Shown here in pieces: positions 5,523 through 9,875 of a stretch of DNA of 10,355 nt. A program made the position numbers and the translations under genes. The stretch's first letter is position 1. Each line of letters starts with the position of its first letter. Source of the stretch: Nitrospinota bacterium (GTDB lineage: Bacteria > Nitrospinota > Nitrospinia > JACRGO01); the NCBI GenBank assembly GCA_016212295.1, contig JACRGO010000218.1, positions 1 to 10,355 of the forward strand, given 5' to 3'. The notes under the pieces are model-generated. The model was not told the origin of the DNA, ran no database searches, and saw only the letters and a program-made list of their open reading frames with translations.

Positions 5523-5749
5523 AACGCGGATAAATGCGAAAACTACGCGGATTGGCGCGGATTTAATTCAAAATTTGCAACAAAGCCACCAAGACACAAA
5601 TATCACAAAGAACATTTTAAGCATTAAATCTTAGTGAATCTTTGTGCCTTAGTGGCAAAAAAAGCATAGCGGCTGAATAGGTCCTAATTTTTTTTTCATA
5701 TTCTGACTTCAGCGGGAGTCCTTATTTTCCGCGAAAACCCGCGTTCTAT
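5519..5749. repeat. Intergenic repeat cluster bounded by an 11-bp inverted repeat, with an internal palindrome
   Basis: The outer ends are atagaacgcgg (5519-5529) and its exact reverse complement (5739-5749). Inside, 5585-5600 and 5641-5656 form a 16-bp imperfect stem (gccaccaagacacaaa / tttgtgccttagtggc, two mismatches). The segment 5609-5648 is nearly identical (one mismatch in 40) to 8065-8104 beyond the porin gene. The element begins within the last codons of the PseG-like gene and supplies its TAG stop. A run of T at 5688-5696 follows, but there is no clean terminator hairpin directly before it. Confidence 0.7.
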
Positions 5750-7862: not shown

Positions 7863-7891
7863 GCTGTCCCACTGAACATAGCGGTTTTGTG

Positions 7892-7926
7892 AAAGGGACC
7901 GGGTTTTTACCCGGTCCCTTTTTTTT
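7892..7926 (+). terminator. Rho-independent terminator after the porin-like gene
   Basis: A perfect 13-bp stem (AAAGGGACCGGGT, 7892-7904, with its complement at 7909-7921) closes a TTTT loop and is followed by a T tract reaching 7926. It lies about 30 bases after the stop codon. Confidence 0.95.
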
Positions 7927-7940
7927 CGCATTTACCCCTT

Positions 7941-7977
7941 AACCACAAAGGACACAAAAAATTCACAAAGAACACGG
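7941..7977. repeat. Short ACCACAAAGGACAC-type interspersed repeat
   Basis: The stretch contains aaccacaaaggacac followed by attcacaaagaacacgg. It resembles the arms of the palindromes at 5585-5656 and 8029-8120 in theme (CACAAAG blocks). From memory, similar motifs are scattered through intergenic DNA of many environmental genomes. It directly adjoins the larger element that begins at 7982. Confidence 0.5.
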
Positions 7978-7981
7978 AGAA

Positions 7982-8156
7982 AAAATTTTGTAACTACTCA
8001 GCAGCCCAATAAGTTGTAATTCAAATATGCCACCAAGACACTAAGGCACAAAGTATCACAAGAAAGAACATTTTAAGCATTAAATATTAGTGAATCTTTG
8101 TGCCTTTGTGTCTAAGTGGCAAAAAAAACATAGCGGCCGAGTAGTTACAAAATTTT
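7982..8156. repeat. MITE-like element with perfect 18-bp terminal inverted repeats and nested palindrome
   Basis: The ends aaaattttgtaactactc (7982-7999) and its exact reverse complement (8139-8156) enclose a second palindrome, 8029-8053 against 8096-8120 (25 bp, three mismatches). The core 8065-8104 matches 5609-5648 with one mismatch in 40 and in the same orientation. The right flank (catagcggc) is also shared with the first copy at about 5667. It has no coding content and, at 175 bases, is the size of a non-autonomous element. No target-site duplication is evident. Confidence 0.75.
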
Positions 8157-8211
8157 AATTAAAGCATGGCCCCCAATACCCTCTTGCCAATTTTTTTTAG
8201 CCCACTATTAA

Positions 8212-8241
8212 TTGACACATGCCTCCAGCGCCCCCTATAAT
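8212..8241 (+). promoter_or_regulatory. Consensus sigma-70 promoter of the radical SAM gene
   Basis: Perfect TTGACA (8212-8217) and TATAAT (8236-8241) hexamers are separated by 18 bases. Transcription is expected six to eight bases after the -10 box, which puts the start at or next to the A of the ATG at 8248. The messenger would be leaderless, in keeping with the absence of a Shine-Dalgarno sequence. Confidence 0.8.
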
Positions 8242-8247
8242 CAATTC

Positions 8248-9174
8248 ATGAAATTAATAAATAAAGAAATCAGAATCGAAACCACCAATATTTGTAATGC
8301 CCATTGCGTCATGTGTCCCAGGGAAAAGCTCACCAGGGAAAAAGGGACAATGGACATGGGGCTTTTCAAGCGTATCGTAGATGAAGTTTTGGATTACGGC
8401 GTTCAAAACGTCTTTCTTGGAGGGTTCGGGGAGTCCTTGTTGGACCCTTTTTTCGTGGAAAGGGTCCGTTATGTGAAAAGCCTTGGCCTTTTCTGCAATT
8501 TTATATGCAACGGGTCTCTCATGGACGAGACAAAGGCCAGGGAATTGATAGACGCCGGATTGGACGAGGTCAGGTTCAGCGTTTATGGAGCGGCCGGCCG
8601 GACATATTCAAAGGTCCATAGGGGCCTTGATTTCGAGAAGACCGCCGGGAATATCCTGAAGTTACTGGACCTGAAAAATTCCCTGGGCAAGGAAAGGCCC
8701 AAGGTATTGGTCTTTTACCTTATGCTTGAGGAAAACGCCGCTGAGTGGGAGGATTTCAAGAAGGAATGGATTGATAAAGCGGACGCAATTGAAATTTGGA
8801 AGCCCCACAATTTCGGAGACGGACGCCTATACCGAAGCGTGAATGGAGGGCCTAGGCGGTCCTGCAACCGGCCGCAGGTCGGACCTGTGCAGATTCAATG
8901 GGACGGCACTGTGATTCCCTGTTGTTGGGATTACGATGGGAAAATGATTTTAGGAGACATGAAGACGCATACCCTGGCGGAAATCTTGCGCAGCGAAAAG
9001 TACCAGGCCATCAGGGACGCCCACAATGCGAATGAATTCAGCGCTTATCCTTTTTGCAGCCAATGCGATCAGCTAATCGACCATCCCGATGCGCTGGTTT
9101 TTTCAAACCGGCACGACCTTCCCCCGGAAATAGCCGTCAACCTCACCAACTCAAATCTCTATAGTTTAACATGA
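8248..9174 (+). CDS. Radical SAM protein with reduced SPASM-like C-terminus
   Basis: Radical SAM enzymes use a 4Fe-4S cluster and S-adenosylmethionine to create a 5'-deoxyadenosyl radical. This 308-residue protein has the cluster motif CNAHCVMC (C16, C20, C23) right after its N-terminal strand EIRIETTN. It also has the Gly-rich GGFGESLLDP segment, a parallel strand ending in CNGSLM, and RFSVYGA. Its C-terminal third carries C206, C225-C226 (VIPCCWD, after VQIQWDG), GDMKTHTLAEIL, and C270-C273 (FCSQC), which looks like a shortened SPASM or twitch auxiliary-cluster domain as found in peptide- or alcohol-modifying members. No precursor peptide or other partner is visible, so the substrate is unknown. 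ATG 8248 is chosen because an upstream TTG (8212) belongs to the -35 box and adds residues unrelated to the family. Its 3' end overlaps the convergent cysH by 16 bases. Confidence 0.85.
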   Translation: MKLINKEIRIETTNICNAHCVMCPREKLTREKGTMDMGLFKRIVDEVLDYGVQNVFLGGFGESLLDPFFVERVRYVKSLGLFCNFICNGSLMDETKARELIDAGLDEVRFSVYGAAGRTYSKVHRGLDFEKTAGNILKLLDLKNSLGKERPKVLVFYLMLEENAAEWEDFKKEWIDKADAIEIWKPHNFGDGRLYRSVNGGPRRSCNRPQVGPVQIQWDGTVIPCCWDYDGKMILGDMKTHTLAEILRSEKYQAIRDAHNANEFSAYPFCSQCDQLIDHPDALVFSNRHDLPPEIAVNLTNSNLYSLT

Positions 9175-9875
9175 AGGCCGCATTCCTTGACCTCCGGAGA
9201 TTCCCACCACCAGCGGCCGGAGCGGATATCCTCGCCGGGCTTGACCGGTCGCGTGCATGGGGCGCAGCCTATGGACGGGTAGCCCTTGTCGTGAAGCCCG
9301 TTATATGGGACCTCGTTTTTCCGGATGTAGTCCCAAACGTCATCATTTGACCAATTTGCAAGGGGGTTTAGTTTGATGATGCCGCCGAATGTCTTGTCAA
9401 TCTCTATTTTCCTGACCTCGGTGCGGGTGACCGCCTGGTCGCGCCGCAACCCGGTCACCCATGCATCCAAGGAAGAAAGCTTGCGTTTAAGGGGCTGGAC
9501 CTTCCTTACATTACAGCACAGCTTGCGGTCCCCGGCGCTGTGGTAAAAGAGGTTCACTCCCTTGTCCCGCGCCATCTCCTCGACCTTGGCGGCGTCTGGA
9601 AACAAAATTTCAATTTGGATTCCGTACTTGCCGCGCACTCTGTCTATCACGTCATAAGTTTCAGGATTGAGCCTTCCGGTATCAAGAGTAAATACGCGCG
9701 CCTGGGGATTGATCCTGGCCAGCATATCCACCACGGCAACGTCCTCGGCCCCGCTCCAGGCAAAGGCCATCCTTGGGTGAAGCTCCTGAAGGCCCCATTC
9801 CAACAGTTCTTGCGGCATCCTGGACTCCATCTCCTTATTCAGTTTTTCTATGTCGTATTTTTCGGTGGTTTTCAT
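9159..9875 (-). CDS. cysH: Assimilatory adenylyl-sulfate (APS) reductase, CysH family
   Basis: The enzyme reduces APS (or PAPS) to sulfite with thioredoxin electrons, the committed step from activated sulfate toward cysteine, in the cytoplasm. The 238-residue length is standard. Features in order: the PP-loop nucleotide site FAWSGAEDV (SGAED at 41-45), FTLDTGRLNPETY (62-74), a Cys pair C120-C121 in KLCCNVRKVQPL, TGLRRDQAVTR (141-151), PLANWSNDDVWDYI (171-184), C204-C207 in GCAPCTRP, and the C-terminal ECGLH (231-235) carrying the catalytic Cys232. The CC and CxxC pairs bind a 4Fe-4S cluster and mark the APS-using type as opposed to the cluster-free PAPS type of Escherichia coli. No clear ribosome binding site precedes the ATG at 9875-9873. 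No other sulfate-assimilation genes are in the window. It converges on the radical SAM gene. Confidence 0.95.
   Translation of the reverse strand: MKTTEKYDIEKLNKEMESRMPQELLEWGLQELHPRMAFAWSGAEDVAVVDMLARINPQARVFTLDTGRLNPETYDVIDRVRGKYGIQIEILFPDAAKVEEMARDKGVNLFYHSAGDRKLCCNVRKVQPLKRKLSSLDAWVTGLRRDQAVTRTEVRKIEIDKTFGGIIKLNPLANWSNDDVWDYIRKNEVPYNGLHDKGYPSIGCAPCTRPVKPGEDIRSGRWWWESPEVKECGLHVKL

Follow-up and report, generated by a model that had tools for sequence, protein, structure and literature searches.

A perfect sigma-70-type promoter six bases before the start codon predicts a leaderless radical SAM mRNA in a Nitrospinota bacterium

Analysis of a 10,355 nt stretch of Nitrospinota DNA (contig JACRGO010000218.1, assembly GCA_016212295.1; hereafter the window) revealed a gene for a radical SAM/SPASM protein that is very probably transcribed from a sigma-70-type promoter at 8212-8241 into a leaderless monocistronic mRNA, as one of a small leaderless class of genes in this genome. 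This reading is based on the promoter geometry, a start codon validated by orthologues and the accumulation of promoters at 6-8 nt from ATGs across the genome. The elements of the region are:

7895-7926, plus strand: intrinsic terminator belonging to the porin gene upstream, GGGACCGGG-TTTTTA-CCCGGTCCC-T8 (read directly from the sequence)
7982-8156, no strand assigned: dispersed palindromic repeat of two nested inverted repeats, just 5' of the promoter
8212-8217, plus strand: -35 hexamer TTGACA, 6/6 (read in the sequence, promoter scan)
8218-8235, plus strand: spacer of 18 nt, with no TG extension ahead of the -10 box
8236-8241, plus strand: -10 hexamer TATAAT, 6/6 (read in the sequence, promoter scan)
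8242-8247, plus strand: CAATTC, the six bases separating the -10 box from the ATG (sequence)
8248-8250, plus strand: start codon ATG of the radical SAM gene
8248, plus strand: predicted transcription start, on the A of the start codon (from geometry only)
8248-9174, plus strand: radical SAM/SPASM protein of 308 aa with a CNAHCVMC motif (Pfam domains, orthologue starts)

The coordinates confirmed what the first-pass annotation had described, namely perfect TTGACA and TATAAT boxes 18 bases apart, followed by six bases and then ATG 8248. The absence of a Shine-Dalgarno (SD) sequence was also borne out: none of the SD cores GGAG, GAGG, AGGA or AAGG was found within 25 nt 5' of this ATG. A8248, preceded by a C, forms a pyrimidine-purine initiator 7 nt past the -10 box. 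Nothing beyond the identity of the hexamers backs the unusually strong transcription proposed in the first-pass annotation, the spacer measuring 18 nt instead of 17 and a TG extension being absent. That annotation had also contrasted the gene with other, SD-led genes of the window; rny and the porin gene do have good SD sites (AAAAGGAGCAAGAAA-ATG and GGAGAGGAGAGAAAAAT-ATG, respectively), but the contrast is incomplete, since a clear SD was likewise not seen for the cysH-like gene at 9875 on the minus strand.

The encoded protein combines an N-terminal radical SAM domain with the CxxxCxxC motif (PF04055: E-value 1.4e-16, 61.6 bits, cut-off 29.5) and a C-terminal SPASM domain (PF13186: 3.5e-15, 56.5 bits, cut-off 21.5). 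It shares this layout with the radical SAM/SPASM maturases that are its nearest models, TIGR04317, PqqE and BtrN, the last two being the closest solved structures. It scores, however, far under every named-family equivalog cut-off, and TIGR04317 (tungsten cofactor oxidoreductase maturase) matched its N-terminal half only, with 129.6 bits against a cut-off of 380. As the gene neighbours vary from genome to genome, no pathway was assigned to the protein. In the window, the gene converges with the cysH-like APS/PAPS reductase gene, and their 3' ends overlap by 16 nt (9159-9174).

Close relatives were found in three of 76 other Nitrospinota genomes, with 74% identity over 243 residues in a member of the same genus, 60% in G009 and 58% in G058; a further relative with 53% identity comes from an Acidobacteria bin. 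The window protein and these four relatives have their first residue in common (MKL[IT]N.E[VI]RIETTN), as the N-termini show (window: MKLINKEIRIETTN; relatives: MKLINAEVRIETTN, MKLTNPEIRIETTN, MKLTNPEVRIETTN), with matching first residues in G001, G009, G058 and L010. The orthologue starts, which the first-pass annotation had named as a check, thus coincide with ATG 8248, and sequence comparison identifies this ATG as the correct start codon. A later start is implausible, since residue 16 already opens the CNAHCVMC cluster motif.

The genome comprises 3.74 Mb in 237 contigs, and an assembly error may have deleted bases between the -10 box and the ATG in such a fragmented sequence. Perfect sigma-70 promoters occur ten times in it, compared with two occurrences of the reversed pattern. 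Downstream of three of the ten, a long open reading frame begins with its ATG at 6, 6 and 7 nt; the genes in question are the radical SAM gene and what we take to be an RpiR-type regulator and an AAA ATPase. For the remaining promoters the next such ATG follows at a distance of roughly 34 to 258 nt, or there is no clear gene. In 1.3 Mb sampled from the genome, promoters with 10 or more of the 12 positions matched were sorted by the distance (d) from the -10 box to the in-frame ATG of a long open reading frame. Counts of 4, 5 and 3 were obtained at d = 6, 7 and 8; d = 3, 4, 5 and 9 were empty, and the other positions held about 0.86 promoters each. The total at d = 6-8 is therefore 12, against about 2.6 expected (Poisson p 1.7e-5), and this peak sits where transcription would begin at the A of the ATG. 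In the same sample, TANNNT or TATAAT alone gave no clear or strong peak at starts, and the peak before ATGs emerged only once a -35 box was required. The lack of a strong peak with TANNNT alone indicates that leaderless starts are a minority in this genome. Extrapolation suggests that some 25-30 of its genes have a strong promoter in the leaderless position, a number that takes in strong promoters and leaves genes with weaker ones uncounted. Read from their sequences, the candidates presumably include a serine acetyltransferase-like gene, a MutS2-like gene, a glycosyltransferase and two regulators. Three of the 12 candidates of this genome (L075, L094, L137) resemble DUF4143-type AAA ATPases, again by sequence reading. 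The first-pass annotation had suggested a distinct start mode for the radical SAM gene; the geometry, the validated start codon and the pile-up at 6-8 nt speak for a leaderless start, a mode that this gene shares with a minority class of the genome.

Three other explanations of the arrangement were weighed. The radical SAM gene might also, or mainly, depend on a promoter lying further upstream; most of its mRNA would then carry an SD-less leader, and the site at 8212 would be secondary. The interval 7927-8211 is long, the dispersed repeat within it could hold an alternative-sigma promoter, and the promoters of the congener lie further from the ATG. Against this, the promoter scan detected no other sigma-70-like site on the plus strand from the porin terminator to 8212 (7927-8211), and any such leader would lack an SD. 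Read-through into the radical SAM gene is also unlikely in view of the strong porin terminator at 7895-7926, although the one structure that a terminator scan listed here was a weaker stem at 7882, which overlaps this hairpin. Altogether we regard transcription also or mainly from further upstream as unlikely.

Chance is a still poorer explanation. Weak promoter-like sites are indeed common, with 15 in the window against 10.7 in shuffles, and the string at 8212 might be one more functionless match. However, no other 12/12 match exists in the window, none of 200 dinucleotide shuffles of the window contained one, and among the mere ten in 3.74 Mb most stand in front of genes, three of them at exactly 6-7 nt; a functionless string is therefore very improbable. 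Lowest of all we rate the idea that the protein begins at TTG 8212, in which case the promoter-like string would be partly coding and its adjacency to the ATG accidental. The frame is open from this TTG and would give 320 aa, but the 12 extra residues are not common to the orthologues, whose starts match ATG 8248, and in G001 an in-frame stop lies a few codons 5' of the matching residue. TTG 8212 was rejected as a start.

We thus favour the promoter at 8212-8241 and a leaderless message. RNA polymerase with the main (housekeeping, sigma-70 type) sigma factor would bind at 8212-8241 and start transcription at A8248 or within one or two bases of it, and the product would be a leaderless monocistronic mRNA for the radical SAM/SPASM protein. 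The predicted message has a 5' region rich in A, and its first 60 nt fold with -0.2 kcal/mol, which is nearly unstructured and weaker than nearly all shuffles; such a start suits direct uptake of a 5'-terminal AUG. The ribosome would accordingly take the AUG directly, with no 5' leader, and the candidate initiating particle, as in model bacteria, would be the 70S ribosome, or a 30S subunit with the initiator tRNA already bound together with IF2.

The dispersed repeat next to the promoter is possibly a MITE-like element. It matches 34 places in the genome, contains '...CACCAAGACACTAAGGCACAAAG...' and is also found at 5564-5692 of the window. An origin of the promoter from this repeat was ruled out, because 8160-8260 is unique in the genome and hence not part of the repeat. 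Two further inverted repeats were observed in the window. One of 66 nt (30-95 and 865-930, 91% complementary, 769 nt apart) encloses a stretch without clear genes; the other, of 48 nt, lies near the contig end (10115-10162 and 10255-10302, 96% complementary, with a 92-nt centre; CCCCGGCCTTCGGCCGCCCCTCTCAAGAGGGG).

Comparison of the region 5' of the ATG among orthologues of the radical SAM gene, for which conservation of the promoter-to-ATG distance had been proposed as a check, showed that the orthologues do not keep this distance. The congener's best promoters stop 27 nt (a TATAAT without a good -35 box) or 67 nt (TTGACA-18-TAGAAT) short of its ATG. G009 has AAAGGAG as an SD ahead of the ATG, in G058 the ATG overlaps the stop of an upstream glnD-like gene with GGAGG as the SD, and the orthologue in L010 has an SD-like site. 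A gapped alignment of window and congener revealed essentially no conserved block 5' of the ATG, so that a homologous promoter in the congener cannot be assigned. Since the geometry is not kept in the orthologues, it represents a species-level arrangement in the genome of the window.

Across the phylum, the pattern TTGA-N18/20-TATAAT-N6/8-ATG gave 256 matches in 77 Nitrospinota genomes, compared with 130 for a control placing the ATG 9 nt further (N15/17) and 46 for the reversed pattern, where related genomes are not independent and not every match heads a gene, so that significance values for the phylum serve as a rough guide. The leaderless geometry is enriched across these 77 genomes. Family f6 (G008, G011, G013, G015, G017 and G019) contributed 64 leaderless-type sites against 19 at the control distance, and each of its six genomes has on average several times more sites than the other genomes of the phylum.

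A gene with this geometry in many genomes is nadB (L-aspartate oxidase, above the NCBIfam cut-off). Among its best-scoring 30 loci (L218-L247), which come from Nitrospinia genomes of families f5, f7, f8 and f9 and leave out f1, f3, f4 and f6, a -10 box adjoins the start in 30 of 30, with d = 6-8 in 29 and d = 5 in one cut contig, distances being counted to an outer in-frame ATG in four of the 30. The promoter consists of TTGA and a TATAAT-like -10 box, and a spacer motif AAAGG..TAA is conserved in many loci. In these best-scoring 30 loci nadB thus appears to have a leaderless arrangement conserved between orthologues; the genome of the window itself has a divergent nadB without this geometry. 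We consider it likely that leaderless initiation is a regular minority mode in Nitrospinia: several families would have retained it for nadB, f6 would rely on it several times more frequently, and single genes such as the radical SAM gene would switch by gain or loss of a leader among close relatives.

These observations correct the expectation that every gene here has a leader and an SD site, and they may help to assign start codons in Nitrospinota genomes. With its promoter 6-8 nt from the ATG across families, nadB would offer a good natural test of why some genes stay leaderless. The radical SAM gene, predicted to lack a leader in one species while its relatives have one, would show how genes pass from one mode to the other.

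Bacteria are well known to produce leaderless mRNAs; the kind of gene is thus established, and the radical SAM gene is a new member of it. To judge from titles and passages, the literature searched contained no paper on leaderless genes in Nitrospinota, which does not prove that no such paper exists. According to passages of two reviews (PMC9031893, PMC10783764), leaderless messages in model bacteria are bound by 70S ribosomes with the assistance of IF2, and the passages of the latter also list the anti-SD class of Nitrospinia. Zheng et al. 2011 (PMC3160421) defined TA-led (leaderless) genes and described medium-GC genomes as keeping the full TATAAT; no passage on Nitrospinota was found in that paper, and 'Nitrospir' has zero occurrences. 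Like TA-led genes, the radical SAM gene has a TATAAT-type -10 box about 12 bp (from its first T) before the start codon and no SD; unlike them, it also has a perfect -35 box. It likewise resembles the -10-motif genes of Deinococcus-Thermus (PMC12340547), in which the -10 box lies 6-7 bp before the open reading frame and expression is leaderless, as is predicted here. In Deinococcus-Thermus, however, nearly one third of the genes are of this type and TANNNT is enough, whereas in the present genome they form a small minority that becomes visible with full sigma-70 promoters.
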